Assembly: GCA_902798365.1 (NCBI GenBank)
Contig: CADBWP010000021.1
Span: forward strand, 1 to 32,173
Direction of reading: 5' to 3'
DNA from: an uncultured Ruminococcus sp.
Lineage (GTDB): Bacteria; Bacillota; Clostridia; Oscillospirales; Acutalibacteraceae
Length of the DNA: 32,173 nt
Part shown: piece by piece, positions 1,239 through 29,246 of the stretch
Layout: each line of letters begins with the position of its first letter
Numbering within the stretch: the stretch's first letter is position 1
Translations under genes and position numbers: made by a program
The notes under the pieces: generated by a model
Databases searched by the model: none
What the model was told of the DNA's origin: nothing
Seen by the model: only the letters and a program-made list of their open reading frames with translations

Positions 1239-1249
1239 AATAACCCCCG

Positions 1250-2281: not shown

Positions 2282-2330
2282 AATATGTTAAAAAACATAT
2301 TGACACGACGTAAATAATATGCTGTATTAT
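2282..2330 (+). promoter_or_regulatory. TetR-gene promoter with overlapping perfect palindrome (candidate operator)
   Basis: AATATGTT (2282-2289) and AACATATT (2294-2301) form a perfect 8-bp inverted repeat with a 4-bp AAAA spacer. Its right arm overlaps the -35 box TTGACA (2300-2305). The -10 box is either TGTATT (2323-2328, 17-bp spacing) or TATTAT (2325-2330, 19-bp spacing). A palindrome across the promoter of a TetR gene is the usual layout of autoregulation. The rest of the 306-bp gap between the divergent genes (2063-2281) holds no gene that I can support. A TATACT at 2100-2105 on the minus strand could be the -10 of the phosphatase/kinase operon, but it lacks a clear -35. Confidence 0.65.
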
Positions 2331-2368
2331 ATTTACACAATGTAACTAACAAATAGAGGGTGGATCAT

Positions 2369-2989
2369 ATGCCTAAAGTAACCGAAGAACACAAGGAAAA
2401 ACGAAAGCAGGAGATTATCGACGCCTGCGAGAGGATATACAGGGAAAAGGGATTTACCGCTGTCAATATCAAAGAGATCAGCACAGCCATCAGCTTTACC
2501 CGTCCTGCAATATACTCTTACTTTGAAACAAAGGATGAGATTTTGCTTGTTCTTCTGAACCGTGAATACGAGAAGTGGATCGACTCTTTAGAAGAAACCG
2601 AAAAGCAGATCGAACAGGGCGACAGAGAGCAAACCGCAGCTTTGATCGCCCATACGCTGGGAGATAGGGGAATCCTCCTGCGTATTCAAAATATGAATCT
2701 GTTTGAGATGGAGCTCAACTGCCGTGTGGAACGGCTCGCGGAGTTCAAGGTGTTGTACCGTACCGTGGTTGAGACCCTGACGCGGATAGCCGGAGCGTAC
2801 AATCCTCAAAGCACGGTGGAAGAAATCAATCGCTTTTGTATGAACTTCAATGCCTTTTTGTTCGGCGTTTATCCGTTTGTTTATCACACCGAGAAACAGC
2901 TTGAAGCGTTGGAGCTTGCAAAAGTACCGCGCATTGATACCACCATATTCGATATGGCTTATCATTGTTTGATAAAAGTTTTACCATAA
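2369..2989 (+). CDS. TetR/AcrR-family transcriptional regulator
   Basis: This is a 206-aa protein with a TetR helix-turn-helix at about residues 12-55, including the characteristic RPAIYSYFETKDEIL segment of the recognition helix and its cap. The remaining all-helical part would bind an unknown ligand. The ATG at 2369 has GAGGGTGG six bases upstream; an in-frame GTG at 2360 lies inside that site and is less likely. The flavodoxin lipoprotein gene starts 32 bp after its stop with no terminator between, so the regulator and the two flavodoxins probably form one transcript controlled from the palindrome at 2282-2301. TetR regulators beside flavodoxin genes often respond to redox-active or toxic small molecules; the ligand here is unknown. 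Confidence 0.9.
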   Translation: MPKVTEEHKEKRKQEIIDACERIYREKGFTAVNIKEISTAISFTRPAIYSYFETKDEILLVLLNREYEKWIDSLEETEKQIEQGDREQTAALIAHTLGDRGILLRIQNMNLFEMELNCRVERLAEFKVLYRTVVETLTRIAGAYNPQSTVEEINRFCMNFNAFLFGVYPFVYHTEKQLEALELAKVPRIDTTIFDMAYHCLIKVLP

Positions 2990-3021
2990 TTCCCACTACT
3001 AAACAAAAGGTGAAATACACC

Positions 3022-3684
3022 ATGAAAAAAGTAATCGCATTATTATCCGTTTTAACACTTATTTTTGCATTAGCAGGCTGCGGAGCAGGCAACACCGGCA
3101 TTCAATCCGAAGCGGAAACGAAAGCTGCGGAAACAACAAAAGCAGAGACCTCGGCAAACACATCCGAATCAACAGACGAAAATGAGGAAGAGCAGAGCAA
3201 CGAAAACGCTGACGGCAGCAAAACTTTGGTGGTTTATTTCTCTGCAACAGGCACGACAAAAGGCGTTGCCGAGCAGATCGCAAGCTACACCAATGCAGAC
3301 ACATATGAGATCACAGCGGCACAGCCATATTCCGAGGATGATCTTAACTGGCACGACAGTAACAGCCGCACCACCAAGGAACAGAACGACAAAACAGTCC
3401 GCCCCGAGATCGGCAGCGAAAAGATAAGCCTCGACGGTTACGACACCATATTCATCGGCTTCCCGATTTGGTGGGGAGAAGAGCCGAGGATAATGGACAC
3501 CTTTGTTGAGAGCTATGATTTTACAAGCAAAACGGTGATCCCATTCTGCACCTCGGGCGGCTCAGGGATCGGCAGCAGCGGCGACAACCTCAAAACAAAC
3601 GCCGGCAGCGGCAACTGGCTTGAAGGCGAGCGCTTGACCGGATCGGATGTTCAACGCTGGATCGACAACTTGAACTTATCATAA
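3022..3684 (+). CDS. Flavodoxin domain lipoprotein (Flavodoxin_4 type)
   Basis: This is a 220-aa precursor. Residues 1-20 are a lipoprotein signal peptide with lipobox LAGC and acylation at Cys20. An acidic, Thr/Glu-rich linker spans about residues 25-65. The flavodoxin domain follows, with the FMN phosphate loop SATGTTKG and the aromatic flavin-stacking region [11 protein letters not shown]. The protein should be an extracytoplasmic FMN protein on the outer face of the membrane, which is unusual because flavodoxins are classically cytosolic. The ATG at 3022 has AAGGTG upstream and starts the signal peptide cleanly; an upstream in-frame start would overlap the TetR gene. The next gene encodes a soluble relative 25 bp downstream, suggesting duplication followed by relocalisation. 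The electron partner is unknown. Confidence 0.85.
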
Positions 3685-3709
3685 TAAAATAAAAAAAGGA
3701 GAGAAAACC

Positions 3710-4183
3710 ATGAGCAAAAAGTTAGTAGCGTATTTTTCCGCAAGCGGCACCACCGCAAGAGTTGCAAAGAATTTGGCAAACGCCGCAGGAGCGGATTTGT
3801 ACGAAATAAAGCCTGCCGTACCTTACAGCAGGGCAGACCTCAACTGGATGGACAAGCAGAGTCGTAGCTCCGTTGAAATGCGCGACAGCGCTTCCCGTCC
3901 CGCGCTCGCCGATACCGACGCGAATATTGCCGCTTACGACACTATCTTCATCGGCTTCCCGATCTGGTGGTATATCGCGCCGACGATAATCAACACCTTC
4001 CTTGAAGCCTACGATTTCAGCGGTAAGAGAATCGTGCTGTTCGCTACCTCCGGAGGATCGGGCTTTGGAAAAGCAGTCGCTTCGTTGCAGCCGAGCGCAC
4101 CGCAAGCAGAGATAATTGCGGGCGAGATTCTCAACGGCAACCCGAACGATAAGAAACTCAAGTTATTTGCAGACAAATATTAA
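3710..4183 (+). CDS. Flavodoxin, cytosolic (Flavodoxin_4 type)
   Basis: This 157-aa single-domain flavodoxin has the FMN phosphate-binding loop [10 protein letters not shown] near residues 10-19, the motif [13 protein letters not shown] in the middle and [10 protein letters not shown] later. These are the three loops that surround FMN in this family. It carries no signal peptide. It closely resembles the lipoprotein encoded just upstream, sharing [12 protein letters not shown], so the pair probably arose by tandem duplication. A strong AAGGAGAG lies about 6 bases before the ATG. A strong terminator follows 5 bp after the stop, ending the TetR-flavodoxin-flavodoxin unit. The likely role is low-potential electron transfer or quinone/redox-stress reduction under TetR control. 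Confidence 0.9.
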
Positions 4184-4188
4184 TTAGC

Positions 4189-4216
4189 AAAAGCTCCGAA
4201 TTTGCTCGGAGCTTTT
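4189..4216 (+). terminator. Rho-independent terminator after the flavodoxin pair
   Basis: AAAAGCTCCGA (4189-4199) pairs perfectly with TCGGAGCTTTT (4206-4216) around a 6-base loop, giving an 11-bp stem ending in a T run. It starts 5 bp after the flavodoxin stop. The gap from here to the next promoter at 4337 holds only a 12-codon frame starting at GTG 4240, which I do not call a gene. Confidence 0.85.
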
Positions 4217-4336
4217 CTGCCAAAAGAGGTGAAAGCCGTGAAAAAGACAATCAAAAGGGTATCTGTTAGGAAATAGTTTGTAAATAATAACACAGGGCGG
4301 TGAAAATCGCTCTGTTTTATGTTTTTTAAAAAATCC

Positions 4337-4365
4337 TTGACAAATTATCAAAAGTAATATATAAT
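4337..4365 (+). promoter_or_regulatory. Consensus sigma-70/sigma-A promoter for DUF3793-flavodoxin
   Basis: TTGACA (4337-4342) and TATAAT (4360-4365) are separated by exactly 17 bp, a full consensus match. Transcription should start near 4372, inside the first of two operator-like palindromes. Such a strong promoter with overlapping operators suggests control by repression. Confidence 0.9.
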
Positions 4366-4369
4366 GCAA

Positions 4370-4422
4370 GTTAGCGATAGCTAACCGCTTTTATTTTTGA
4401 CTACAAGTTAGCGAAGGCTAAC
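4370..4422 (+). promoter_or_regulatory. Two near-identical palindromic operators, DtxR/iron-type
   Basis: GTTAGC-GATA-GCTAAC (4370-4385) and GTTAGC-GAAG-GCTAAC (4407-4422) share identical 6-bp arms and differ only in the spacer. The flanking bases are also similar (CAA before, CC after). Their centres are 37 bp apart, covering the predicted transcription start and the leader up to the ribosome binding site (AAGGAGA, 4424-4430). The TTAGN-GCTAA form resembles sites of DtxR-family metal regulators (IdeR/MntR type). Control of a flavodoxin by iron would fit the replacement of ferredoxin by flavodoxin during iron limitation. The regulator is not encoded in this window, so its identity is an inference. 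Confidence 0.65.
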
Positions 4423-4435
4423 CAAGGAGAAACCT

Positions 4436-4987
4436 ATGTCAGAGGAAGTAATAGTAAAGTATTGCTCGCCGACCTTGGCGGGGCTGAAAACAGGCAGCTT
4501 GTTCAGCTGTTCTTATGATGATCAAAATGAGCTTCTCGGGTTTTTGAGGGAGTTGAATCTCAGCTTGGGGAGCAAAGGTATCCGATTTTTGCCTTTGCGA
4601 CTAAGTAACAAAAAGGCTTTGATTTATGCTTTTCGACCTTCACGGCTTTTTTCGGAATTGAAAAACGAGGGGGCGGAAAAGCTGCTCTCGGAGCGCGGTT
4701 ATCATACTGATAATTGCGGAAAATGCCTTGCGCGACTGAGAAAACGCCTCGGCGAAAGCAGAGAATTCCCTCACGAAATCGGGCTGTTTCTCGGCTATCC
4801 TGTTGAGGATGTAAAGGGCTTCATCGAGAACAAGGCAGCCTGCGCAAAATGCGTAGGCTGTTGGAAGGTCTATGGCGACGAGAAAAAGGCGAAGCGATTA
4901 TTTGCTCAATACAAAAAATGCACCTGTGTTTATGAAAAACAATGGTACGCAGGCAAACCGCTGACAAAATTAGCGGTAGCAAGTTAA
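4436..4987 (+). CDS. DUF3793 family protein
   Basis: This is a 183-aa soluble protein with the features of the DUF3793 family of clostridia: an N-terminal LAGLKTGSLFSC, a central RPSRL segment and a cysteine-rich C-terminal half (NCGKC, CAKCVGC, KCTC). The cysteine pairs suggest metal or Fe-S binding, though the biochemical function is unknown. Members of this family commonly sit beside flavodoxin and ferrous-iron transport genes, which agrees with the DtxR-like operators in front of this one. The ATG has AAGGAGA six bases upstream. The stop codon TAA (4985-4987) lies within the TTAA target of the miniature transposon that now separates it from the flavodoxin gene. Without that insertion the two genes would be about 30 bp apart. 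Confidence 0.8.
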   Translation: MSEEVIVKYCSPTLAGLKTGSLFSCSYDDQNELLGFLRELNLSLGSKGIRFLPLRLSNKKALIYAFRPSRLFSELKNEGAEKLLSERGYHTDNCGKCLARLRKRLGESREFPHEIGLFLGYPVEDVKGFIENKAACAKCVGCWKVYGDEKKAKRLFAQYKKCTCVYEKQWYAGKPLTKLAVAS

Positions 4988-5094
4988 GGCAACACCGCAC
5001 AATTCAAGGCGCACGGCTTGCTTGAATATTGTTCCGTCAGCTTGCCCAAAAAATCTCGGCAAGGCGACAGCCTTACCTCGCGGTATTGCCTTAA
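4984..5094. mobile_element. Miniature inverted-repeat element (MITE) with TTAA duplication
   Basis: GGCAACACCGC (4988-4998) and GCGGTATTGCC (5080-5090) are terminal inverted repeats with one mismatch. The element is 103 bp and is flanked on both sides by TTAA (4984-4987, 5091-5094), a likely 4-bp target duplication of the YTAR type used by IS5-like elements. It encodes no protein. Its first 15 bases, GGCAACACCGCACAA, are identical to the IS end at 82-96, so it is probably a non-autonomous relative of that IS. The insertion is precisely at the DUF3793 stop codon and leaves the reading frame intact. An internal AAGGC-gaca-GCCTT hairpin lies near 5061-5074. Confidence 0.8.
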
Positions 5095-5122
5095 TTATTT
5101 TATCACAGAAAGGAAAATGTAT

Positions 5123-5542
5123 ATGAAAACAGCAATTGTATTTTGGAGCGGCACGGGAAACACCGAGGCTATGGTTCAGGCTGTTGCCGAAGGCGCTAAA
5201 GCCGCAGGAGCGCAGGTCGATGTACTTACCTGCGATATGTTCAACGAAACTATGATAAGCGATTACGACGCTATAGCCTTTGGCTGTCCCTCGATGGGAG
5301 CGGAACAGCTTGAAGAAGATGAATTTGAGCCGATGTTCAGCGCTTGCGTTCCAAAGCTTGGAGGAAAGAAGATCGCACTTTTCGGTTCCTACGGCTGGGG
5401 CGACGGCGAATGGATGCGCAACTGGCAGGACGAGTGCGAAAGCGCCGGCGCAGTATTGACATCCGAGCCCGTGATCTGCAACGACGCTCCCGACGACGAG
5501 GCGGTTGCCGCGTGCAAAGCGCTCGGCGAAGCTTTGATATAA
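5123..5542 (+). CDS. Short-chain flavodoxin
   Basis: This 139-aa protein is the usual length for a short-chain flavodoxin. It has the FMN phosphate loop WSGTGNTEAM at about residues 8-17, FGCPSMGAEQLEE in the middle (first flavin-flanking loop) and GSYGWGDGEWM (second flavin loop with the stacking aromatic). It should carry one electron in place of ferredoxin. The ATG at 5123 has AAGGAAA at a good distance; an ATG six bases earlier is too close to that site. It lies downstream of DUF3793, separated only by the miniature transposon, and probably shares the promoter and the two operators at 4337-4422. The insertion may weaken that link. It is distinct from the flavodoxin pair at 3022-4183. Confidence 0.92.
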   Translation: MKTAIVFWSGTGNTEAMVQAVAEGAKAAGAQVDVLTCDMFNETMISDYDAIAFGCPSMGAEQLEEDEFEPMFSACVPKLGGKKIALFGSYGWGDGEWMRNWQDECESAGAVLTSEPVICNDAPDDEAVAACKALGEALI

Positions 5543-19084: not shown

Positions 19085-20563
19085 TTAACTGTCCTTATTT
19101 TCATTTTTCAGCTTTCTGAACGACAGAAGCTGTTTTACATATGCGGAAACCTTTTTGCGGAAGATAATCACCGTCAGGGCTATCATGCCCACCATGCAGT
19201 ATCTGAGGATGGGGTAGTCGTAGGTAAGCAGCAGCAGCAAGCCGGCCGCAACAAAAACTACCGACATACCCAGCAGTACCTTGGGGTCATATGGCTGCAT
19301 GTTGTTCAGGTGCTTTTTGCACACCCAATGCATACATACATAGTGCCCCAGCGCGTACATTATGTAGCAGATAAGCGTAGTGTAGCCTGCGGCGACGTAG
19401 TCGCACCCGAGCTTGCCCAAAAACAGATAGTTGAGCGCGATATTCAGCACAGCGCCCATTATGCTGGCGCCCATGATGAACCACGACTTTTCGTAGTAAA
19501 ACTGGAACGAGGCAAACATGTCGTACATAAACATAAAATACACGCTAAGCGCAACGGGCGGAATAACCCATATGGCGTCGCCGTATTTCGGCGGAGCAAA
19601 CAGCGTAACCGCCTCGGGCGCGAGCAATATCAGCGTAAGGTTGGCGCCGGCTATTATCAGCAAGGCGGAATATACCACGGGAGCCATGTCCTTTACCTGC
19701 TTGTCTTTTATTTTTTTGTATATCCACGGTCCCATGGTCTGTGTAAGAGCCTGGTTGAACATGGTCATAAGCACCGCTATCGAATATGCGATGCTGTATA
19801 TGCCCGCGGCGTCGTTGCTTTGGTAGCGGCCTACCATTATTCTGTCAACGCCGTACAGCATGTTCTGTGACAGATAGTGGGGAATAAGGGGAATGTTAAG
19901 TTTTAGCGCGTATATCCAAAACCTTTTTGAAAAGAACACCTTGCCGCGCTTAAGCTGAACAAAGGCGCACCACACATAGCCTGCAAGCTCGGCGGCGAGC
20001 ATTGCGAGTATTCTCGCCGTAGCCTTGTCCTCCGAGTTGAGCACAAGCACCACGCCCAGCGCCGGCTTTATAAACAGCACCAGCATGGTTATAACCACAA
20101 GAAGGCGGTACTTGTTGTTTACGCGCTGCTCCGATGACCAAAACTGGAACGCTGCGGTGGCCCAGATCATCAAAAGCATCGCAACCATCTGCACGGTCTT
20201 CATGCCAAGCAGTTCGTTGAAGAAGTCGCGGAATATAAGGTAGAGCAGGGTCCATGCCGAGCACAGCACAAGGGTAAGTCCCTGCAGCGAAGATGCATAC
20301 ACCTTCGCCTTGTCGCTGAATTTTACCAAGCCTTGCATAAACATGCCGTAGCTCAGGTTCATTGTAATAATTACCGAGATCATGCCCATCCACGACAAAA
20401 ATACATTGTATTCGCCGTATTGGTCGGTAGTCATCAGGCGTGTAAATATCGGCGTAGAAATGACCGACATCGCCTTTTGGAAGAAGGTGCATACCAAAAA
20501 CCACAACGAAGCCTTTACCTGAACGGGCATAGACGCATATTTGTTTTTCAGCTTTGAAAGCAT
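19085..20563 (-). CDS. Polysaccharide flippase (Wzx-like, MOP superfamily)
   Basis: This is a 492-aa integral membrane protein with about 12-14 hydrophobic helices and a short charged C-terminal tail (FRKLKNENKDS). The N-terminal segment, with FFQKAMSVISTPIFTRLMTTDQYGEYNV, is the classic start of Wzx-type flippases, including the F-TRLL/M-T...YG pattern. The protein should move the undecaprenyl-linked repeat unit across the membrane before polymerisation. GGGGAT precedes the ATG. It is the last gene of the EPS operon, 37 bp after the polymerase gene, followed by a hairpin terminator. The flippase, polymerase and initiating transferase together mark a Wzx/Wzy-dependent pathway. Confidence 0.9.
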   Translation of the reverse strand: MLSKLKNKYASMPVQVKASLWFLVCTFFQKAMSVISTPIFTRLMTTDQYGEYNVFLSWMGMISVIITMNLSYGMFMQGLVKFSDKAKVYASSLQGLTLVLCSAWTLLYLIFRDFFNELLGMKTVQMVAMLLMIWATAAFQFWSSEQRVNNKYRLLVVITMLVLFIKPALGVVLVLNSEDKATARILAMLAAELAGYVWCAFVQLKRGKVFFSKRFWIYALKLNIPLIPHYLSQNMLYGVDRIMVGRYQSNDAAGIYSIAYSIAVLMTMFNQALTQTMGPWIYKKIKDKQVKDMAPVVYSALLIIAGANLTLILLAPEAVTLFAPPKYGDAIWVIPPVALSVYFMFMYDMFASFQFYYEKSWFIMGASIMGAVLNIALNYLFLGKLGCDYVAAGYTTLICYIMYALGHYVCMHWVCKKHLNNMQPYDPKVLLGMSVVFVAAGLLLLLTYDYPILRYCMVGMIALTVIIFRKKVSAYVKQLLSFRKLKNENKDS

Positions 20564-20600: not shown

Positions 20601-21944
20601 TCAATGCGAGGCGCGGTGGAAGCGAAAACGAAGCCTTACCATCGGCGCGCGGCCGCGCAGCACGCGTTCGGTAAGCTGTGGCTCTTCAATGCCCCTGAGA
20701 GACAGAAGGGCGGCGCATATGATCCACCAGAACATAGAGGCGGAAACACAGCTTAGTGAAAAGAAAGATATAACAAGCACAATAAGCGGAAGAAAGTGGT
20801 CGGTGTTAAGCCTTTCCGAGGAAATCGCTACCAGTCCTCTTATTGTTGTAAAGAAAATCGAAATAAACACCGCCAAGCCGATAAGTCCCCACGAAAGCAC
20901 TATATCTAAATACGTGTTGTGAGAGATGTTCGATTCAAAAAACTTGTTGTAATGCACTCCGTAGCCGAACAAAAGCAGAATAGGGTTAACTATCAGCTTG
21001 TTCATATACATCACCTGCAGGGTGGATCGCCTTGTGGTGAGCTTGTCAAGCGTCATGTTGGTGCCGCGCGCGAACACACGCGTCATCAGCTTGTCTATCA
21101 TTGTAACAACAAACTGACTGAAAACGGCAACAAGCACAGCGCCTATGATTATCAGCCGCCTGAAAAACTTTGTTTTGCGCGAAAAACCGCTGTATATCAT
21201 CTTGGCGGAAAAGTATATGAGCATAAGCAGAATGAGAAGTATTGCCATTTTTGAGGCGGTGAACAGCTCTATTGCTATCAAAGAAAAGATAATTATGTAA
21301 TCGTATATCAAATGCTTTTTCAAAATCAGTATCATTGCTATTGAAAGGCATATATACAGGGAATAATAGTTGGGGTCGGAGGCAAACGCCGTGTAGCGGT
21401 ATCCGCGGAAGTAGCGGCTCATGTCTATATATTTTGTATATATTATAAAATAGAACACCGCCGAAAAAATAGCTCCCAGCGCAAGCGCACGCGCGGCGTG
21501 CGAAAGCCTGATTATGGTGTTTTTGTCAAGAAGGGTGCTCTCTACAAAATACAAAACGAGAATAGACGAAGCATTGGGAATAAGATCCTCAAAGTTTCTG
21601 TTGTACATAATATGTATCAGGTCAATTCCCAGCAGCAGAGTGGTGTGGGCGAGAGCGGTGAAGTTGATTTTTCTAACCCTAATAAACCGCGTCGCAACAG
21701 GCGTCAGAAGCATCAGGTTGGTTAATACCTGGATACCGCCGACGTCCATCATGCGTATGTTCGGTACCAAAAACAGCGCAAAGCAAATGCAGTATTCGTC
21801 GTCTCCAAAGAAAAAGCTGACCTCTGCTGCGGCAAACGCCACAAGCATAACGGGCAGCGAGACGAGCCATTTGCCCGTAAACGCCAGCAGTATGTATGAC
21901 GCAAACAAAAAATAAGCGAGCCTTTGTTTGTTTAATCTTAACAT
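20601..21944 (-). CDS. O-antigen ligase/polymerase-like protein (Wzy-type)
   Basis: This is a 447-aa membrane protein with roughly ten to eleven helices, and a long loop near residues 290-350 containing the NISHNTYLDIVLSWGLIG segment. That HN-YL--L---G-IG pattern is the mark of the O-antigen ligase/Wzy (PF04932) family. It probably polymerises repeat units on the outer membrane face. Wzy proteins vary greatly in sequence, so the call rests on topology, this motif and context. The start codon lies 7 bp after the glycosyltransferase stop; the GGAG used for initiation lies inside that gene, which implies translational coupling. The C-terminus is basic (RLRFRFHRASH). Confidence 0.8.
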   Translation of the reverse strand: MLRLNKQRLAYFLFASYILLAFTGKWLVSLPVMLVAFAAAEVSFFFGDDEYCICFALFLVPNIRMMDVGGIQVLTNLMLLTPVATRFIRVRKINFTALAHTTLLLGIDLIHIMYNRNFEDLIPNASSILVLYFVESTLLDKNTIIRLSHAARALALGAIFSAVFYFIIYTKYIDMSRYFRGYRYTAFASDPNYYSLYICLSIAMILILKKHLIYDYIIIFSLIAIELFTASKMAILLILLMLIYFSAKMIYSGFSRKTKFFRRLIIIGAVLVAVFSQFVVTMIDKLMTRVFARGTNMTLDKLTTRRSTLQVMYMNKLIVNPILLLFGYGVHYNKFFESNISHNTYLDIVLSWGLIGLAVFISIFFTTIRGLVAISSERLNTDHFLPLIVLVISFFSLSCVSASMFWWIICAALLSLRGIEEPQLTERVLRGRAPMVRLRFRFHRASH

Positions 21945-21951: not shown

Positions 21952-23025
21952 TCAGTTCTCCGTGTTAACGTATTTGCGGTATTGCCTTACAGCCGTAAGC
22001 GCGACCTTGTCCCATTCAAATTCACGCGAAAGCCTAAGGGCGTTTTCGCTGAGCTTTTTCATATCCGAGCGTTCCGCAACGATTTTTTTCAATGCGTCGG
22101 CAACAGCGTCGGCGTCGGTTTTTACACCGCGGCCTGCTTTGAAGCTCTCAACGGCGTCGGCAAGAGTGGTGCCCTGTGTAACAACGCAGGGGAGACCGGT
22201 AGCAAGCGCCTCAAGCACGCCCATAGGCATACCGTCCGAGCGGGAGGTCTGAACAAAAACATCGCTTTCAAGCAATACGCTGCGTTTGTCGTCGCCGGAT
22301 ACGGAATCGTGAAGCCTGATGAGCTCTTGGGCGTTTTCGGCGTCGATTAGCGCCCTTATTCTGTCGTCAAAGCGCTCCCCCCGGTGGTTGAACGGACCGT
22401 AAATGTCAAGACGGCAGTTGTTTTTTTCAAGAAACACCTTTTCGCGGGCAAACGCCTTTATCATAATGTCGAGCCCTTTTATATAAGGCTCAAGCCTGCC
22501 TATGAACACAAAGCGCGTACTGCTTTCGCCAAAGCTTTGTTTTGTGTGCTCGGGAGGATAAAAGCCGTTTGTGGCAACAAACAGATCGCGCCCGAACACG
22601 CTTTCACGCTTTTCGGTTTCGGAAAGACATTGGATACCCGCCGCGTTATCGCAGAAGGGTCTGAACATCAAAAGATTCGCCGGCAGCTTTTTGATCCTGC
22701 TCTTTTTTTGCGCCGCACGGTTAAGCGAGCTGTGCGGAACGACCACATAGGGGATACCAAGCCTTCTCAGTTCCTTTGATATGGGTATATACTTCGGCTT
22801 ATACACCTCATGAAACACCGCTATATCGGGCTTGCTGTAGGGTTCGGGCAATGAGCCGAGCGAATCGCCCGTAAGCGTTTTGTCAAGTGAGGCGATCTGC
22901 ACGCCCTTAAGGTTCCATAGCGCCGTGTCGGCATATTTTGCCTGGGCAACAACATGCTGCGGAACAACAGTATCAACTCCGCTGACGGGATTATCGTCAA
23001 CGCAGGCTATGTGCAAAATTACCAT
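21952..23025 (-). CDS. Glycosyltransferase, family 4-like (GT-B fold)
   Basis: This 357-aa protein has GT-B architecture. The N-terminal half contains the GVDTVVPQHV loop near residue 16 and VVPHSSLNRAAQ. The C-terminal half has FIGRLEPYIKGLDIMIKAF, the usual F-GRL-P-KG entry to the donor domain, and SDGMPMGVLEALATGLPCV, which holds the nucleotide-sugar ring (the E-x7-E-like motif of family 4). It should add one sugar to the lipid-linked repeat unit at the inner membrane face. GGAGGA lies 6 bases before the ATG. It is the only dedicated non-initiating glycosyltransferase in the operon, so either the repeat unit is very short or other transferases are encoded elsewhere. Confidence 0.9.
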   Translation of the reverse strand: MVILHIACVDDNPVSGVDTVVPQHVVAQAKYADTALWNLKGVQIASLDKTLTGDSLGSLPEPYSKPDIAVFHEVYKPKYIPISKELRRLGIPYVVVPHSSLNRAAQKKSRIKKLPANLLMFRPFCDNAAGIQCLSETEKRESVFGRDLFVATNGFYPPEHTKQSFGESSTRFVFIGRLEPYIKGLDIMIKAFAREKVFLEKNNCRLDIYGPFNHRGERFDDRIRALIDAENAQELIRLHDSVSGDDKRSVLLESDVFVQTSRSDGMPMGVLEALATGLPCVVTQGTTLADAVESFKAGRGVKTDADAVADALKKIVAERSDMKKLSENALRLSREFEWDKVALTAVRQYRKYVNTEN

Positions 23026-23051: not shown

Positions 23052-23738
23052 CTATTTTTGCCCCGCCTTAAACAGCACGACGGCGACAGACTTCGCCATT
23101 ATTTTAGCGTCCATTTTTACCGACATATTCTTTATATATTCAATGTCATATACTATTTTTTCCTCGGGCTTAAGATAATATCCGCCATACACCTGCGCAT
23201 AGCCCGTAAGCCCGGGCTTTACCTTCATCCTCTCGCTGAAGCCGTGAATGTAGGTTTCAAATTCCTTTATAAAGCAGCGCCTTTCGGGTCGCGGACCTAT
23301 AAAGGACATATCGTTTTTCAGTATATTGATAAGCTGAGGCAACTCGTCCATCTTGGTTTTTCTCAAAAACGCACCCACTTTTGTGGAGCGTTCATCGGTG
23401 TCGGGCGCCCAGCGCGCGCCGTCCTTTTCGGCATCTACCATCATCGACCTGAACTTGTAGATCCTAAAGGTTTTGTCGTTTTTGCCTTGCCTTCTCTGCT
23501 TGTACATCACAGGACCCTTTGAGTCCAGCTTTATGCACAGGGCTATTACAAGCATGGGTATTGCCAGAATAATAAGAGATACAAGAGAAATTACGATGTC
23601 AAATAGGCGTTTTACAAAGGCATAGCCGGGGTTGAGCTTTACCTCGCCCAGATCCTCAATAAAATACTCGCCTGTTTTTTGACACGGTAAGATGACGTTG
23701 CGGTTTTCCTCAGCTTGTGCAGCAGTTGCACTCGCCAT
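23052..23738 (-). CDS. Initiating sugar-phosphate transferase (polyprenyl-P glycosyl-1-phosphate transferase)
   Basis: This is a 228-aa protein of the short monotopic type (PF02397). Residues about 35-65 hold KRLFDIVISLVSLIILA, the characteristic re-entrant membrane helix. The catalytic domain carries GPVMYKQRRQGKNDKTF, IYKFRSMMVDAE, the LRKTKMDELPQLINIL segment and SFIGPRPE, followed by KPGLTGYAQVYG. It places the first sugar phosphate on undecaprenyl phosphate to begin each repeat unit. The long polytopic N-terminus of WbaP-type enzymes is absent. GGAGGA lies just before the ATG. It follows the BY-kinase gene by 33 bp; in related systems the kinase/phosphatase cycle can control this step. 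Confidence 0.93.
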   Translation of the reverse strand: MASATAAQAEENRNVILPCQKTGEYFIEDLGEVKLNPGYAFVKRLFDIVISLVSLIILAIPMLVIALCIKLDSKGPVMYKQRRQGKNDKTFRIYKFRSMMVDAEKDGARWAPDTDERSTKVGAFLRKTKMDELPQLINILKNDMSFIGPRPERRCFIKEFETYIHGFSERMKVKPGLTGYAQVYGGYYLKPEEKIVYDIEYIKNMSVKMDAKIMAKSVAVVLFKAGQK

Positions 23739-23771: not shown

Positions 23772-24497
23772 TTACTTCTTGTATTCGTAGTAGTAATATT
23801 TGGAATTTTTCTTGTAGAACTTCTTCGCATTAGGTCTGTCGTTATACACAAAGCCCATAATGTTCGCGTTGGCAAAGTTCATTTGTCTAATGGTTTCCTC
23901 AATTTCAGACATCTCGGAGGTTTCGTGGCGTACCACAATCAGATAGCCGTCGATGACCGACGACAGTATCGCCGCGTCGGACACAACGCCCACGGGCGGA
24001 AAATCGACTATAACATAGTCGTAAATTTCCTTAAGTATGTTCAGCATATTGGTCATCTGAGGAGATTCAATAAGCTTTGTGGGGTCGGGCGGTATGGTTC
24101 CTGCGGGAATAACGTCTATATTCATTTCGTTGTTTCGGATTATGGGCAGATTCTCAAAGCCGTTGTCACCGGTCAGATAGTCGCTCAGTCCGAAATTGCC
24201 CTTTGTCATGCCAATCTTTGAGGCTACGGTAGGCAGGCGCATGTCGCAGTCTATGATAACCACTTTTTTTTCAATTTGAGCCAGCGAAATAGCAAGATTA
24301 AGCGATATTGTGCTTTTGCCCTCGCCGCGGTTGGCACTGATAACGCCCACACAACGGCTTCTGTCGCCGGGCAGCGAAAACGCCACGTTGGTTCTCAGGG
24401 TTTTGTAAGCCTCCTGCATAGAGAAGCCGGAGCTATCCGAAAGCAGATTTTTGCTTTTGTCAAAAACGGAGTCGGTTGTTCTTTTTTTGCGCTTCAT
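23772..24497 (-). CDS. Capsular polysaccharide BY-kinase (CpsD/CapB/EpsB-like)
   Basis: This is a 241-aa cytosolic bacterial tyrosine kinase. Walker A is SANRGEGKST (54-63), Walker A' VIIDCDMR (80-87) and the Walker B-like segment VIVDFPP (162-168). A C-terminal tyrosine cluster (Tyr228, 234-237 and 239, in SKYYYYEYKK) is the autophosphorylation tail. Residue RSRCV near 47-50 precedes the first strand as usual. The kinase works with the adjacent Wzz-like membrane adaptor, whose cytosolic end activates it, to control chain length and export. Its ATG overlaps the Wzz stop in TAATG, so the two are coupled. No CpsB- or Wzb-type phosphatase gene is in the operon. The only phosphatase-like proteins nearby are those encoded at 1250 and 12260. 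Confidence 0.95.
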   Translation of the reverse strand: MKRKKRTTDSVFDKSKNLLSDSSGFSMQEAYKTLRTNVAFSLPGDRSRCVGVISANRGEGKSTISLNLAISLAQIEKKVVIIDCDMRLPTVASKIGMTKGNFGLSDYLTGDNGFENLPIIRNNEMNIDVIPAGTIPPDPTKLIESPQMTNMLNILKEIYDYVIVDFPPVGVVSDAAILSSVIDGYLIVVRHETSEMSEIEETIRQMNFANANIMGFVYNDRPNAKKFYKKNSKYYYYEYKK

Positions 24498-25333
24498 TAC
24501 GGACGACCCCCTTTCTTTTTATCGGTATCGTTGGCGTGCTTTGTTGCTTGTGCATAAGAGCCGTAGTAGCTGGAATAGTTGTAGTAGCTTGAGTAATCGC
24601 CGCTTGACCTTAAATCGTTAGAGTTGGGTATAATGCCTATTACGGGGAATCCGAAGCGTCCCTCAAGGTCGCCCTCCGACTTGACGCTGTCGTCCTTAAA
24701 GTATCTTATAAGAACTATCACAATGGCAGCCAAGGCGCCCACAAAGCCGCCCACTATGCCTATGCTCACGTAATTCGGGCGGTATCTTTTGGTAGAAAGC
24801 TGCGGAGGGTCGATAATGCGCATCGAGCTGCCGTCGATTATCTGAGCCATGTAGGTGGGGGAGGTGTGAGCTATTGCCTGAGCCAGCTTGTAGGAATTTT
24901 GAGCCGAGGGAGTTTCAACATATACGGTAATAATCTCGGTCTCATCCTCTATTTCGGTCGTGACAGAGCTTGAAAGAGCGTCCTGCTCCATGTCGATATT
25001 GCTGAACTCGGCTGAGGCGATCAAAACTGAGTTACTTGTAAGAACCTTTGAATAGGTTTTTACAAGATCCTTGGATGCCTGCGTATCAACGCTCGAAAGC
25101 GATTCTCTTGACGTTTGCTGCGTCTGATTGTTTACGTAGGCGGTAAAATAGCTGCGATAGGTGGGCTTTAAAAACATCTTTGAGGCAACAAACGTAGCGC
25201 CTGCGGTAATAACGGCAACCAAAATGATGATCCATATCTTTTTGGCGAGTGCCACCAAAAGCGGCGCCAGGTTAACCTCTATTTCGCGCACGCTTTTGTC
25301 GTTTTTGTTTTGAGTGACAATTTCTTTTTCCAT
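24497..25333 (-). CDS. Chain-length determinant / kinase activator (Wzz, CpsC/CapA-like)
   Basis: This is a 278-aa membrane protein with two membrane helices, near residues 30-50 (IWIIILVAVITAGATF) and 193-213 (VSIGIVGGFVGALAAIV). Between them is an extracytoplasmic domain with coiled-coil tendency and the Pro-rich RIIDPPQLSTKRYRP before the second helix, as in Wzz proteins. The cytosolic C-terminus is Tyr/Ser-rich (SSYYNYSSYYGSYAQ), unusual for the adaptor, and it could itself be a target of the kinase. AGGAGA lies before the ATG. Together with the BY-kinase it forms the split Firmicute version of the Wzc complex. It is the fourth gene of the operon, 59 bp after the nucleotidyltransferase-like gene. 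Confidence 0.9.
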   Translation of the reverse strand: MEKEIVTQNKNDKSVREIEVNLAPLLVALAKKIWIIILVAVITAGATFVASKMFLKPTYRSYFTAYVNNQTQQTSRESLSSVDTQASKDLVKTYSKVLTSNSVLIASAEFSNIDMEQDALSSSVTTEIEDETEIITVYVETPSAQNSYKLAQAIAHTSPTYMAQIIDGSSMRIIDPPQLSTKRYRPNYVSIGIVGGFVGALAAIVIVLIRYFKDDSVKSEGDLEGRFGFPVIGIIPNSNDLRSSGDYSSYYNYSSYYGSYAQATKHANDTDKKKGGRP

Positions 25334-25392: not shown

Positions 25393-26547
25393 TCATTCCT
25401 TATCCTTTTCAAGCTTTTTTATATAGCTTATTTCCTTTTTTATATCCTTGCGCTTGTGAATCGCCTGAACGGGCATATTAAGCGCAACATAAACGGGGAA
25501 AAGCAGCTTGTGCTTTGCTATGCCGGGATTCCGACTTTTGATTTTTGCGGCGTAGCCCGATATTCTGTGCCGGTAGTAACGCACTCTTGAGCCGCCCCCG
25601 CCCGAAAAGCATTCGTTGAACATATTTTCATAGTAATGCTCGTCAGCGCCGAACATGCCGCTCGTAAGAATATACTGAAGCATTTCCTTTTCGTCGGCGT
25701 CAAGTGCGTCAAAGCCGTCTTTTACGGCTGATTTGTCCGAAAACAGCTTCAGGGTAAGCCTGCGAAGCGTTTCCTCAAACGAAACAGCGCCCGTTTTTTC
25801 AAGCTCGCGCCGGACATAGTCAAAGTCGATGTCGGTGTAATTTTTAAGTATGAGGTACTCGTCGGTAACGGTGCGAAAGCCCGTGCCGTTAACTGTATAG
25901 TGCTTGAACGCGTGTAATATAAAGTAAATGTAAAAATCACTTTGGGTAAAGTGATAGCCGTAACCGCTGCCGTCGGGCTCAAGCCTTTCCTTTATGTCGC
26001 TGTAATAGGAGTGGATGTCAAAGCCGTTCAGGTTTTTGTCGCGGTCATACAGCGAGTGGTGCAGCTCAAAATTATAGAACGGATCCTTTGAATACTCGTC
26101 GGCGCAGGTGAAGTCGGCGCGCAGGGTATAGCCGTTTTTAAGCATATATTCACGCATGGTGTCGCGGAAGTTTTCGTCAAAAAGAATGTCGTTATCGGCA
26201 AATTCCCTCGTGCCATAGTGGGGATACAGTCTTCCGATGACCGCGCCCTTGAGAAGCATGTACCAAATTTTGTTCTGCTCCATAAAGGCAATCAGTTTTT
26301 TTCTTTCCGCCTCAAAAAGAATCGTTTTTTTGATCTGATGGTTAAGCGCATCATTCCAGCGGCGTTTTTCGTCATCTGAGGCGTTGCCGAGCAATCCTGC
26401 GCCCGACAATGCTTTTGCCGTAAGCGCCGCCATGCCGTGTGCCGACGCCAGCTTCCACAACGCGTCATAGTCGATTTTGTCTAAAACGGGATTTTCGCCT
26501 GTGAGGGAGCAAACGGAGAGATATACAAACTGTGTTACGGTGTTCAT
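25393..26547 (-). CDS. NTP_transf_5 family nucleotidyltransferase-like protein
   Basis: This is a 384-aa soluble protein. The diagnostic segment is residues 96-124, with WYMLLKGAVIGRLYP followed by REFADNDILFDE: a Lys-Gly pair (100-101) and acidic residues Asp118 and Asp120 that would bind metal and nucleotide in a polymerase-beta-like fold (PF14907). Substrates of this family are not established in general. Members occur in peptide-tailoring clusters, such as some phosphorylated lasso peptides, and in polysaccharide loci with PqqD-like and HprK-like partners. Its ATG overlaps the stop of the S24/S26-type gene (ATGA, 26544-26547), with GGAGG before it. The tight overlap with the two upstream genes argues that the three products act together. 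Confidence 0.8.
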   Translation of the reverse strand: MNTVTQFVYLSVCSLTGENPVLDKIDYDALWKLASAHGMAALTAKALSGAGLLGNASDDEKRRWNDALNHQIKKTILFEAERKKLIAFMEQNKIWYMLLKGAVIGRLYPHYGTREFADNDILFDENFRDTMREYMLKNGYTLRADFTCADEYSKDPFYNFELHHSLYDRDKNLNGFDIHSYYSDIKERLEPDGSGYGYHFTQSDFYIYFILHAFKHYTVNGTGFRTVTDEYLILKNYTDIDFDYVRRELEKTGAVSFEETLRRLTLKLFSDKSAVKDGFDALDADEKEMLQYILTSGMFGADEHYYENMFNECFSGGGGSRVRYYRHRISGYAAKIKSRNPGIAKHKLLFPVYVALNMPVQAIHKRKDIKKEISYIKKLEKDKE

Positions 26548-26999
26548 TTATTACCTCCGTTAAAGAATCTTTTTTTTGCCTTCCAAAGAACGTGCTCAAC
26601 GCCGTGCAATACATATCTGGGAGCGTACAAAAAGTTCCACAACCGCGAGTATAGCCTGTAGCCGCGCTCATTTACGCTGTGATTTTTGCCCTTGCGCTTA
26701 AACTCGGAAAGCACGCCTATCACGTTTTGCCTGGGAATATACTCCTTGCGGTAGGTGTTGTCGCCGCGAATGATATACACGCCGTCTCCAAAGCCGATTA
26801 TGCGGTGCAAAACATACCTTCCGTCGCACTCTCTTACATACAGCGGTACGTCGTATTTTTTCAGCTCTCCGCTTACCGGGCGTATTATAACCAAATCTCT
26901 GTTTTGCTTGAACAGGGGGCGCATACTCGAGCCCTGTGTTTTGTATATGAGAACTCCGTTTTCGTTCAGGAGCTTTTCAAACGTTCCGCTTGATTTCAT
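26544..26999 (-). CDS. S24/S26-type peptidase, His-dependent, lacking a membrane anchor
   Basis: This is a 151-aa protein. Residues 19-31 read YKTQGSSMRPLFK with Ser25 in the signal-peptidase box S-M-x-P. VLHRIIG (63-69) supplies His65 where the SipW/Sec11 type uses histidine as the base, and RGDNT (78-82) matches the conserved GDN box. Bacterial LepB-type enzymes use lysine instead, so this is the archaeal/ER-like type. No N-terminal membrane helix is present; the C-terminal part is basic with a moderately hydrophobic segment. The target is unknown. It could cut a peptide handled by the PqqD-like protein. It overlaps both neighbours by 4 bp (ATGA junctions), so the stoichiometry of the three proteins is probably linked. 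Confidence 0.78.
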   Translation of the reverse strand: MKSSGTFEKLLNENGVLIYKTQGSSMRPLFKQNRDLVIIRPVSGELKKYDVPLYVRECDGRYVLHRIIGFGDGVYIIRGDNTYRKEYIPRQNVIGVLSEFKRKGKNHSVNERGYRLYSRLWNFLYAPRYVLHGVEHVLWKAKKRFFNGGNK

Positions 27000-27256
27000 T
27001 CGTCAAGCGCTCCCACTCTGCGCAGGGTAGCAATAACCTCGTCAACGTCGGCAGCTATTACCTCGCGCGGAGCGTCGTATTCCGCAAGCATTTTGTCGAT
27101 GACCTCGTCACGCGTGGTCTCTTCCTTCATGTAATTGATTATCTCGGCTGCGGTCTTGTTGCTGCGCACTATTCCGCTGAATTTTGCGTCGCCGGCAGCC
27201 ACCATCACCTGTGTGTCGTCAATATCCTGAGTAAGAAAATTTCCGTTTAATTTCAT
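26996..27256 (-). CDS. PqqD-family protein (peptide-binding RRE-like domain)
   Basis: This is an 86-aa protein with the PqqD fold: three short strands in the first 35 residues, with DDTQVMVAAGDAKFSGIVRSN, then a helical part with TAAEIINYM and the C-terminal VDEVIATLRRVGAL. PqqD-like domains recognise leader peptides in ribosomally made, modified peptide pathways and present them to enzymes; others work in HprK/PqqD systems of unknown product. The ATG has AAAGGA 9 bases upstream. It is the first gene of the EPS operon, directly behind the promoter at 27328-27356. No precursor-like small gene is visible beside it: the longest short frame in the leader is 27 codons and lies over the promoter. 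Confidence 0.82.
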   Translation of the reverse strand: MKLNGNFLTQDIDDTQVMVAAGDAKFSGIVRSNKTAAEIINYMKEETTRDEVIDKMLAEYDAPREVIAADVDEVIATLRRVGALDE

Positions 27257-27327
27257 GCTTTTTTATCCTTTCCGCAACAGCGTTCATGGCAAATCGACGC
27301 TATTGCGCTATTATTTCATTCTGTACC

Positions 27328-27356
27328 ATTATATCAATAAATACGTGTGCCGTCAA
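27328..27356 (-). promoter_or_regulatory. Promoter of the PqqD/EPS operon
   Basis: On the minus strand TTGACG (complement of 27351-27356) and TATAAT (complement of 27328-27333) are spaced by 17 bp. The leader to the PqqD start codon is about 65 bases. No other strong promoter was seen before the operon end at 19085, so all nine genes probably depend on it. The 253-bp gap 27257-27509 otherwise holds only the terminator at 27439-27474. Confidence 0.85.
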
Positions 27357-27438
27357 ATGGTTTTTTTTGTAATAAATTGTCATGAAAAACAAGAATCCGT
27401 GTTATATTGTTATTATTTTGTCTTTAATGCGAATAAAA

Positions 27439-27474
27439 CAAAAAGCGATGTATTATTGCACAAAATACATCGCT
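27439..27474 (-). terminator. Terminator after the HprK-like gene
   Basis: AGCGATGTAT (27444-27453) and ATACATCGCT (27465-27474) form a perfect 10-bp stem with an 11-base loop. Read on the minus strand it begins 36 bp after the HprK-like stop and is followed by TTTTTG and further T-rich sequence. It separates the GH13/EndoU/HprK operon from the PqqD/EPS operon. Confidence 0.85.
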
Positions 27475-27509
27475 CAAATTTGTAAGATATAAACAATTGC
27501 CGCTGCCTG

Positions 27510-28244
27510 TCAGCGGCTCACAGCCTCATAGCATATTCTCGCCGCTTCGGGTGAAATATCGCATTGAAGTGAATAAAGCTTTACGGACGAAAGCAAACGG
27601 GTCTGCAACGCCAGGGACAGCGCTTTGTCGGCAACACAGTCTCTTTGAAACGTCGCCGCAAACAGCTCGGGAACCATTTCGCTGACGGCGGCGGGTCTGA
27701 TAATATTCTCATTGCCGCGGCTCAGCTTGATTATCGCCTTAAGCGGAGCGCTTGTGTTTTTGCCGGGATTTTCGTTTCCGCTCCACGGGCTTCCGTAGGC
27801 AATTGCGCCGTTGCCGGTAGGGCGGATAAACGGCTTGTCATCGTTTAGAATCCGGGCGCGGCTGCCCAAAAGCTCGCACCAAAGACGTGTGTGTGTGGAT
27901 TTTCCCGTTCCGCTGCGTGCGGTAAACAGATATGCCTGGCCGTCGGCAATTATTGCAGAGCCGTGGATCATCAGCACGCCGCGCTTGAGCAGGGCAGAGG
28001 TGATAAGGCGGAATATGGCGCTGTTCTCGGCAACGTTGTCATAGTGCTTGTATGACATGTCGCCGCGCGCAAGGGCGTTTTGCTTAAGCTCAGCCGCCGC
28101 TCTGTCACATTCCTCCAAGGTTGCCTCAATAACAGTATCCGTCGGCTCGTCTGTCATATAGTCCTCAAAAAAATCTTTTACGAAACCGTAGCGGCAATGA
28201 ATCCTAAAGACCTCGTCCGCTATTTTAACGTTGAACTTTATCAT
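27510..28244 (-). CDS. HPr kinase-like protein (HprK-related, PEPCK-like fold)
   Basis: This is a 244-aa protein corresponding to the kinase domain of HprK without its N-terminal domain. It has MIHGSAII (92-99), the P-loop ARSGTGKSTHT (109-119), LNDDKPFI (133-140) with the metal-binding Asp pair, and GSPWSGN (151-157). These are the shared marks of HprK-related kinases in PqqD-associated systems. True HprK phosphorylates HPr; relatives such as the lasso-peptide kinases phosphorylate a peptide serine. The start overlaps the preceding gene by 20 bp and has only a weak ribosome binding site, implying translational coupling. It ends the GH13-EndoU operon, and the PqqD-like gene begins the next operon 253 bp on. 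The real substrate is unknown. Confidence 0.85.
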   Translation of the reverse strand: MIKFNVKIADEVFRIHCRYGFVKDFFEDYMTDEPTDTVIEATLEECDRAAAELKQNALARGDMSYKHYDNVAENSAIFRLITSALLKRGVLMIHGSAIIADGQAYLFTARSGTGKSTHTRLWCELLGSRARILNDDKPFIRPTGNGAIAYGSPWSGNENPGKNTSAPLKAIIKLSRGNENIIRPAAVSEMVPELFAATFQRDCVADKALSLALQTRLLSSVKLYSLQCDISPEAARICYEAVSR

Positions 28245-28536
28245 ATTGCTTTTTGTATGCCTTTGTTATTCTTTTAAGATCGCGGGTGGGAGCCTCGATC
28301 TCCTCGCCGTTTATGTCGTTTGTCACCTTTGTGTTTTCGGGAGTAATAAATATCGAAAAAGCGTTGCCCGAAAAGGAAGGATTCTCCTCACCGCTTTCAA
28401 ACGCCTCAACTATTTTGTCCAGAAAGCTTCTTTCGGCAAGCAAAAGCTCGGCAAACAGGCTGTAATAGCTGTCCTCAAAAACAACCTCGGGAAGACGTCG
28501 CTTTTTGCCTGCGGGCGCTATTTTGTATTTCAGCAT
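28225..28536 (-). CDS. Conserved-looking 103-aa protein, possible EndoU partner/immunity
   Basis: I do not recognise the family. The protein is soluble with a basic N-terminus (KIAPAGKKRRLPE), a helical acidic middle (FAELLLAERSFLDKIVEAF), a beta segment (SGNAFSIFITPENTKVTNDI) and a basic C-terminal helix ending KAYKKQYDKVQR. The size and layout resemble cytosolic immunity or antitoxin proteins. GGAG lies about 8 bases before the ATG. It starts 2 bp after the EndoU-like lipoprotein stop and overlaps the HprK-like gene by 20 bp. It could therefore be the immunity partner of the EndoU domain or a partner or substrate of the kinase; sequence alone does not decide. Confidence 0.7.
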   Translation of the reverse strand: MLKYKIAPAGKKRRLPEVVFEDSYYSLFAELLLAERSFLDKIVEAFESGEENPSFSGNAFSIFITPENTKVTNDINGEEIEAPTRDLKRITKAYKKQYDKVQR

Positions 28537-28538
28537 AG

Positions 28539-29219
28539 TCAGTCTCCTTCATAAACGGGGTAGGCGGTGGTTATTTTTTTGCTGCCGTCAAGGTACATGT
28601 CAATCTCCAAATCGCCGCTGTAGCCTATCCACAGCGAGCCGTGAGGATTGTCGGGGTCGCTCAGGGCATAGTCATACGCCTCGTTTATGGCGTCAACCAC
28701 CTGCTGTGGTGTGTAGCTTTCGGGATAAAAGGAGCTGAAACCGTTTTTCTTTACACCGCTCACCTTTACCTCGCCGGTAAATACGCCGTGGCGGTCGGTT
28801 GACGAGCGTGTGCCGCTTATTATTTCGCCCTTGCTGTCGGAAACAAGGGTATAGTGATAGCCCGTCGCCTTGCCCTTGCCGTTGATGGTGCCGTCAAAAA
28901 TGTGTTCAAGCGTGTTTTTGGCAAAGTGTTCGGTGTTTTTCAGCTTTTTTATATCCGCCATGGTGTAGCTGCCGGCGGAAGCTTTGTCGTCTGTATTGTC
29001 GCCTTGGCTTTCCGGGCTGCTCTGCTTTGAGCTATGCGAGCCGTTCAGAGCGTCGTCAATGTAGCTTTGCGCGTTGTCAATGACGCTTTCGGCATTTGAC
29101 TTTATGGTGGATTCGGCTGCGTTTTTAAGCTCATCTACCATCTCGGAGCAGCCGCCGAGCACAATGCACAGCGCAAGCAGCAGAGCTGCAACAGCGGAAA
29201 GGATTCTGTTTTGCTTCAT
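28539..29219 (-). CDS. Lipoprotein with a bacterial EndoU-like nuclease domain
   Basis: This is a 226-aa precursor. The signal peptide ends with lipobox LGGC (Cys24). A helical stretch (28-58) and a Ser/Asp-rich linker (60-85) follow. Residues about 95-185 match the bacterial EndoU pattern: LEHIFDGTI (His106), ATGYHYT (His122), and VKKNGFSSFYPESYTPQQV with Lys157 or Lys158 and the SxFYP box. His, His and Lys are the catalytic residues of EndoU RNases, so the site looks complete. A short C-terminal extension (GSLWIGYSGDLEIDMYLDG) follows. EndoU domains are common toxin tips; on a lipoprotein it would sit outside the cell, where its RNA target is unclear. The ATG at 29219 has CGGAGAAA upstream; an ATG nine codons earlier overlaps that site. 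It follows the GH13 gene by 27 bp. Confidence 0.75.
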   Translation of the reverse strand: MKQNRILSAVAALLLALCIVLGGCSEMVDELKNAAESTIKSNAESVIDNAQSYIDDALNGSHSSKQSSPESQGDNTDDKASAGSYTMADIKKLKNTEHFAKNTLEHIFDGTINGKGKATGYHYTLVSDSKGEIISGTRSSTDRHGVFTGEVKVSGVKKNGFSSFYPESYTPQQVVDAINEAYDYALSDPDNPHGSLWIGYSGDLEIDMYLDGSKKITTAYPVYEGD

Positions 29220-29246
29220 ATTTTCTCCGTTAAATAAGATTTGCAA

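Follow-up and report, generated by a model that had tools for sequence, protein, structure and literature searches.

We propose that a four-gene module of an uncultured Ruminococcus sp. is a clostridial machine for the maturation of peptides of the linear polyphosphorylated peptide (LPP) type, and that it acts in trans; we put the probability of this at roughly 0.78. LPPs were described in May 2026 from the lpp cluster of Paenibacillus alginolyticus, with the parts LppA, LppK, LppB, LppS, LppD, and LppN (Popov et al., 2026, PMC13381572; our statements about this paper refer to the accessible part of its text). The module lies in a stretch of 32,173 nucleotides (the window), which is positions 1 to 32,173 of contig CADBWP010000021.1 in assembly GCA_902798365.1. 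A check of open reading frames (ORFs) found the four genes where the initial annotation had placed them, all on the minus strand: an HprK-like, LppK-like kinase (27510..28244, 244 amino acids); a discrete RRE of the PqqD family, LppB-like (26996..27256, 86 amino acids; Pfam PqqD, E = 5.6e-14); an S24/S26-like relative of SipW/archaeal-type (S26B-like) signal peptidases, which would be an LppS-like leader peptidase (26544..26999; Pfam Peptidase_S24, E = 3.3e-5); and an LppN-like nucleotidyltransferase of the NTP_transf_5 family (25393..26547, 384 amino acids; Pfam PF14907, E = 3.1e-37). The last three are chained by two 4-bp overlaps, as had been noted. Judging from the sequences, there is little doubt that the machinery is LPP-like, both in its parts list and in how its precursors behave. 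What seems to be new is the clostridial design, in which one module serves many scattered substrates, each beside a secreted protein.

Precursor peptides track the kinase

The initial annotation proposed that the module acts on a peptide or protein, saw no precursor, and concluded that the product would be new; it suggested a search for a conserved small gene in the same genomes. When we scanned beside modules for small ORFs with a ribosome-binding site, we found peptides of 35-55 amino acids with a common start. An iterated profile gave 13 precursors in ten genomes at first and then many more. Their leader follows a pattern like MKKYxxPExEIxxFDxEDVITTS and the core is variable. In an alignment of 127 distinct peptides to the family model, the leader residues are Y in 116/126, P in 100/127, F in 100/126, D in 111/125, and Ser in 113/124, and conservation stops after this Ser at the end of the leader. 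None of the 45 precursors that we scanned has a confident match in Pfam or NCBIfam (the best was to the lasso_cyano model, E = 0.063, in 3 members), and these genes escape genome annotation. The window's own genome (G000) has two of them on other contigs (G000:C7:5165-5326 and G000:C11:11719-11844). So the statement about a missing precursor and a new product was partly wrong, because the family exists, two members are encoded in trans in this genome, and the core of the LPP pathway is already published (PMC13381572, accessible part).

The precursors are found where the kinase is found. We searched 100 genomes from the window's family with the window's kinase and found matches in 46 of them, at 59 places. 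Precursors (E up to 0.1) are present in 26 of the 100 genomes, and every one of these 26 also has a kinase match. If we leave out the 10 genomes that supplied the query, the kinase is in 16 of 16 precursor genomes versus 36 of 90 overall (P = 3e-8; this and the next P value ignore phylogeny). Across 291 genomes of the class, 41 have precursors, 85 have the kinase, and 40 have both; outside the window's family (all rows of the precursor query used for the class search came from this family), the kinase is in 38 of 39 precursor genomes versus 83 of 285 (P = 7e-23). Among 299 genomes of the phylum, 8 were found to have the peptidase family, and the 3 with precursors are all among them. A single genome can have up to 24 precursor matches (G314). 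The existence of the family and its co-occurrence with the kinase make it very probable that the module acts on a peptide, as had been suspected.

Could this peptide be a lasso peptide of the paeninodin type, with the cyclase and the B2 protease encoded elsewhere in the genome? A kinase, an RRE, and a nucleotidyltransferase are common to paeninodin-type clusters (PMC13381572; PMC7533575; accessible parts), the leader has a lasso-like YxxP motif, and some of the cores could close into a ring on paper. This seems very unlikely because the B2 family (PF13471) scores above its cut-off in only 1 of the 100 family genomes (G068), and that genome has no kinase match. Fifteen genomes have any PF13471 match at E = 0.001, and only one of these (G026) has the kinase, with a PF13471 match below the cut-off. 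The window's genome has no match at E = 0.001 (the assembly is 86% complete). Also, by eye, no residue recurs in the cores as a regular acceptor. We set aside a lasso peptide made in trans on the basis of the PF13471 search. As for the cyclase, no Asn-synthetase-like macrolactam cyclase was named among the window's proteins, and no search of the genome was aimed at one.

The module mostly recurs without the polysaccharide genes

Do the four families form one module, as had been proposed? We read 38 kinase loci from the family (37 of the 59 places, plus the window), and in 28 of them a PqqD gene and/or a peptidase gene adjoins the kinase or is one gene away. We also considered the best 80 kinase loci listed from a species-level genome collection (the "named loci"; counts cover the stretch that was read around the kinase). 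PqqD is present in 64 of these, the peptidase in 56, NTP_transf_5 in 36, an ABC exporter in 35, and a precursor in 28. Thus, the families co-occur beyond chance.

An alternative is that this module is dedicated to regulation or tailoring within the exopolysaccharide (EPS) operon, with an EPS protein as the target of the kinase and the nucleotidyltransferase, and that the dispersed peptides occur with it only by coincidence. In the window and in two loci from other uncultured Ruminococcus (L156 and L211), the module genes do lead into Wzz and BY-kinase genes, and a Wzz-BY-kinase fusion lies near the module at L061. However, a Wzz like the window's is present in just 3 of the best 80 named loci, and BY-kinase in 3; most have no such EPS genes. 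Since the precursors also track the kinase across the class, we think that this alternative is improbable. The link to polysaccharide that the initial annotation emphasized is real in the window, and a tie to the cell surface is supported, but the arrangement is a minority one.

Some of the named loci include a protein of 441-477 amino acids with a radical SAM motif (10 of the best 80; Pfam confirmed three of the ten). L159 and L229 are radical SAM loci of this kind. All 9 precursors from seven radical SAM loci have a Cys in the core, as compared to 1 of 25 precursors from other named loci. (We counted L158 as a radical SAM locus; its gene lies under a shadow ORF.) This pairing of the maturase with core Cys is an argument that the neighboring enzymes act on these peptides.

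We also made several side observations about these loci. Short cores in several precursors of named loci (such as L188, L192, L199, and L214) have a motif like TxMPE, TPEYP, or TPIxP, by eye. In Kandleria vitulina DSM 20405, a precursor-like ORF of 117 amino acids (L340, 9229-9582) lies beside the module and is far longer than the others. The window's own genome has further, split pieces of the module, namely a PqqD-peptidase pair on contig C5 and a PqqD-NTP_transf_5 pair on contig C65, as well as lone kinases on contigs C40 and C48. At L037 (7446-9941), PqqD is next to a GroEL-like gene (Cpn60) and a small partner gene, and L204 and L232 resemble it, with PqqD, with or without the peptidase, beside a GroEL-like gene. 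The surroundings of the L061 module (222-5403) include, besides the fusion, a T2SSE-type ATPase and a LysM/Secretin_N-like protein, which is odd for Clostridia; L071 (417-5900) has the same arrangement, by clustering only. Finally, there is a longer HprK-like subfamily (about 290-320 amino acids), whose match is confined to the kinase core, and many genomes of the class with it have no detected precursors.

Precursors are paired with secreted proteins

Most precursors are encoded away from the module, right behind the gene for a secreted protein. We read 75 loci with precursors away from kinases, chosen from the better matches rather than at random; they contain 79 precursors, of which 4 were dropped at contig edges. 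In 64 of the 75 assessed cases, the precursor is preceded on its own strand by a gene that ends no more than 150 bp away (median 17 bp). As a background rate, a large gene with a signal peptide lies that close upstream, on the same strand, of 10 of 338 genes. These upstream partners range from 127 to 2334 amino acids, and 50 of 53 have a signal-peptide-like start, as compared to 88 of 283 other proteins of at least 180 amino acids. (We called signal peptides with a crude hydrophobicity rule of our own making. The 53 comprise the partners whose start falls within the locus plus any others with a signal; 11 partners that are cut by an edge and have no signal peptide were excluded.) Domains in the partners include InlB-type and List_Bact repeats, Cna_B, BspA-type LRR, subtilase, GH16, and DUF6273. 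In the window's genome, the C11 precursor begins 49 bp after the gene for a 473-residue secreted protein and the C7 precursor 34 bp after the gene for a 135-residue secreted dockerin protein. Partners in genome G357 (L281, L300, and L342) include proteins of 2228 and 1104 amino acids.

Given this tight pairing, and given that the peptides are often far from the module, one might suppose that they are small partners that regulate or chaperone the secreted protein encoded upstream, that they are not precursors of ribosomally synthesized and post-translationally modified peptides, and that the kinase module serves something else. This is unlikely: the peptides co-occur with the kinase, their leader motif is of the RRE-binding type, they have a Ser at the place that is phosphorylated in LppA (PMC13381572, accessible part), and they have core Cys in the radical SAM loci. 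If the peptides are LPP-type precursors, then the scattered pairs suggest that LPP peptides probably function together with surface proteins or act on them.

Many of the partners also share C-terminal domains. When compared by their last 140 residues, 56 of the 71 partners group as CTD-A (42 proteins from 29 genomes) or CTD-B (14 proteins from 8 genomes); these two families were matched by 8 of 503 other proteins from the same loci. (This count left out L123, L133, L286, partners under 180 amino acids, and gaps over 250 bp.) The contrast with controls is softer than these numbers suggest, because only partners served as queries in the search, because paralogs from the same genome were counted (the 71 partners are from 45 genomes, 36 of which have a CTD-A or CTD-B partner), and because 57 of 166 signal-like control queries were themselves interlinked via their C-termini (the largest groups had 17 and 13 members; 5 controls reached a partner). 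CTD-B is the family matched by the C11 partner of the window's genome (E = 1e-14) and by three partners from Ruminococcus flavefaciens Y1, a genome with 8 precursor matches, a single kinase, and a complete operon of kinase, PqqD, peptidase, ABC, and nucleotidyltransferase genes. The predicted structure of CTD-A is a beta-sandwich (pLDDT of 90.4). We do not assign it a function because its neighbors in the PDB are generic beta-sandwiches only (the best is ApaG, E = 8e-4, TM = 0.51). The prediction for CTD-B has a mean pLDDT of 56, which is too low to interpret. We had considered a single universal C-terminal domain, but three groups showed no clear link when their profiles were compared, and two families later emerged.

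Active sites and points against the proposal

By alignment, the active sites of the module's enzymes are not eroded, which agrees with the initial annotation's view of a working module. In the kinase, which has a P-loop (GTGKSTH) and an NDDKP motif, the columns that are invariant in 30 of 30 aligned sequences (including the window's) include H94, G114, K115, T117, H118, D136, K137, N180, and C228. Ser25, His65, and Asp80 of the peptidase are invariant in 22 of 22 aligned sequences, the window's included, and D118xD120 is invariant in 8 of 8 aligned nucleotidyltransferases. The peptidase has no apparent N-terminal membrane helix, by eye. Its Pfam score is marginal (24.0 bits versus a cut-off of 23.3), its nearest NCBIfam model is the archaeal-type signal peptidase I, below the cut-off, and its profile matches signal peptidases and SEC11A (E = 0.001 to 0.006). 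A profile of the RRE, made from 21 relatives, matches TbiB1 (E = 1.7e-11), TfuB1 (E = 1.2e-7), 9x90 (E = 2.1e-6), and LppB (9x8z, E = 4.6e-6).

Several observations weigh against an LPP-type module that acts in trans. First, we found no significant sequence match that ties the kinase to HprK in Pfam, NCBIfam, or the PDB. It has no Pfam match over the cut-off (PEPCK_ATP, E = 0.0096); its NCBIfam matches are all below the cut-off (ScmC, E = 2e-5; HprK_rel_B, E = 2.1e-4; HprK_rel_A, E = 2.1e-3, with 17.2 bits versus an equivalog cut-off of 200); and its match to a solved HprK structure is weak (1ko7, E = 0.23). So the kinase is named from its motifs and context. Second, the RRE profile is closer to TbiB1 than to LppB. 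Third, although the window's four genes correspond to the K, B, S, and N parts of the LPP cluster (PMC13381572, accessible part), the Paenibacillus LppK, LppS, and LppN were not compared to them directly. Fourth, the module in the window has no MsbA-like exporter beside it (the remaining genome was not searched), and a profile scan found no precursor anywhere in the window. Fifth, 10 of the 38 family loci have lone kinases, two of them in the window's own genome. Sixth, genome G357 has four precursors and no kinase match even at E = 0.001; it is the sole exception among the 291 genomes of the class. Seventh, our script found no pairing, or no clear one, for 11 of 75 precursors (it scored L115 and L137 as unpaired, yet a partner is visible on inspection), and the close upstream gene in L133 encodes UvrC, which is clearly not secreted. 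Finally, the Bacilli consensus is YxxPxVLxHQxIxFETxxS (PMC13381572, accessible part), and the distance from Tyr to Ser is 18 there versus 19 in the clostridial leaders. Even so, the similar position of the conserved Ser, 19 after the leader Tyr as compared to 18, makes it the likely phosphate acceptor.

A proposed mechanism

By analogy to LPPs, the PqqD domain would bind the YxxP leader and the HprK-like kinase would phosphorylate the Ser of DVITxS, which is nearly invariant and lies where leader and core meet. The leader would then be removed by the soluble, SipW-like peptidase; as a guess, cleavage might be after the T of DVIT. The nucleotidyltransferase may add a further group, and an ABC exporter, encoded outside the window's module, would secrete the core. 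In short, the expected chemistry of the module is phosphorylation of Ser and cleavage of the leader. In the Paenibacillus system, LppK puts multiple phosphates on Ser3 of the core, LppS (with a triad of S29, H68, and D93) cleaves after Thr-1 and requires LppB, and no effect of LppN was observed in the host of the study (PMC13381572, accessible part).

The pairing with secreted proteins suggests that the module has a role in surface or matrix proteins. We can only guess how a peptide and its partner would cooperate, perhaps by attachment or decoration at the surface. More specifically, and tentatively, the pairs could form a split tag: each secreted protein would be co-transcribed with its own LPP peptide, the central module would phosphorylate and trim all of the peptides in trans, and the exported mature peptide would be joined to, or would complete, the beta-sandwich C-terminal domain of the partner, which would fix the partner to the wall or to the exopolysaccharide from the same operon. 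We think that this full scenario is somewhat doubtful. If it is true, then the system sorts or decorates proteins, and its tag is a modified peptide that is made separately from them.

Genes around the module in the window

The kinase is probably the last gene of an upstream operon, as had been proposed: a probable terminator, read by eye as an 11-bp inverted repeat with five T at about 27474-27440 on the minus strand, follows it (our hairpin scan instead gave 27517-27499), and a sigma-70-like promoter site precedes the PqqD gene (27356-27328, minus strand; TTGACG-17-TATAAT). The site is only a match to the consensus (11 of 12 positions), and the scan found 4 promoter-like sites versus 2.0 expected in shuffled sequences. 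Upstream of the kinase, and also on the minus strand, are a 103-residue protein that overlaps the start of the kinase and has no Pfam or NCBIfam family (28225..28536) and a lipoprotein-like protein with an EndoU nuclease domain (28539-29246, Pfam), which adjoins the kinase operon.

After the promoter-like site, the order is PqqD, peptidase, nucleotidyltransferase, Wzz (24497..25333; Pfam, E = 4.3e-14), a BY-kinase-like ATPase (23772..24497; Pfam AAA_31, E = 9.3e-15), a priming sugar transferase (Bac_transf, 23052..23738; Pfam, E = 4.2e-66), and a GT4-type glycosyltransferase (21952..23025), all on the minus strand. Thus, the polysaccharide run in the initial annotation is borne out by Pfam for Wzz, BY-kinase, and the sugar transferase, and by sub-cut-off NCBIfam matches to several GT4 families (best E = 2.6e-25) for the next gene. 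For the two genes that follow, also on the minus strand, which it labeled a Wzy-like membrane protein (20601..21944) and a Wzx-like flippase (19085..20563), NCBIfam gave no match.

L156 and L211 have the same gene order as the window, with a gap of ~150 to 250 bp after the kinase; L156 has no detected peptidase gene. Both have a gene of similar length at the position of Wzy, homologs of the EndoU-domain gene at the same place, and an upstream alpha-amylase-type gene whose length is also conserved. In L195, the order is kinase, PqqD, peptidase, and then a flippase-like gene of 499 amino acids, which the N-terminus of the Wzx-like protein resembles, by eye; a 107-residue ORF occupies the position of the window's 103-residue protein.

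Comparison to known systems

The nearest known system is the LPP cluster (PMC13381572, accessible part). Both have an HprK-like kinase, a discrete PqqD/RRE protein, a SipW-like leader peptidase with a Ser-His-Asp triad, and a nucleotidyltransferase; both have a YxxP leader followed by a conserved Ser, variable cores, and a module without a cyclase; and both occur in a capsular or exopolysaccharide setting, as LPP clusters sit in or near capsular polysaccharide loci of Bacilli. In contrast, the LPP cluster has its precursor and exporter in cis, and the window's module does not, so it is not a canonical LPP cluster. Also, clusters in Bacilli have 1-3 precursor ORFs each (searched within 5 kb), whereas the clostridial precursors are scattered, with many matches per genome, and are paired with secreted proteins, and a radical SAM enzyme is also encoded at some clostridial loci. 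The main text of the LPP paper, which gives the biological role as unknown, does not contain the words clostridi-, ruminococc-, surface, secreted, or radical SAM. Thus, the pairing is a testable lead on the role of LPPs. The system also now extends beyond clusters in Bacilli: many Clostridia of the gut and rumen have it, some of them in culture, a genome can encode many substrates, and one branch has a radical SAM enzyme and Cys-containing substrates.

In a literature search that covered few subscription papers, we found no report of this scattered design of clostridial precursors with secreted proteins, and the term "linear polyphosphorylated peptide" was found in PMC13381572 alone. Nothing on point linked HprK/PqqD to EPS, RRE to Ruminococcus, or PEP-CTERM to an HprK-related kinase.

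Lasso clusters of the paeninodin/pseudomycoidin type are alike in having a kinase, a nucleotidyltransferase, and an RRE (PMC13381572; PMC7533575; accessible parts), but here there is an S26B-like peptidase and no B2 protease match, and the leaders have YxxP rather than WxxP. The likeness of the kinase to HprK_rel_A, HprK_rel_B, and ScmC is distant, with all scores far below the cut-offs, and these matches are all that bears on the parallel to proteobacterial HprK/PqqD polysaccharide loci that the initial annotation drew.

In the PEP-CTERM/exosortase and LPXTG/sortase systems, a single machine sorts many surface proteins that carry a C-terminal domain. A sorting role for the clostridial system is hypothetical, and the system differs in that the conserved signal is not the C-terminal tail of the protein but a separate small peptide that is encoded after it.

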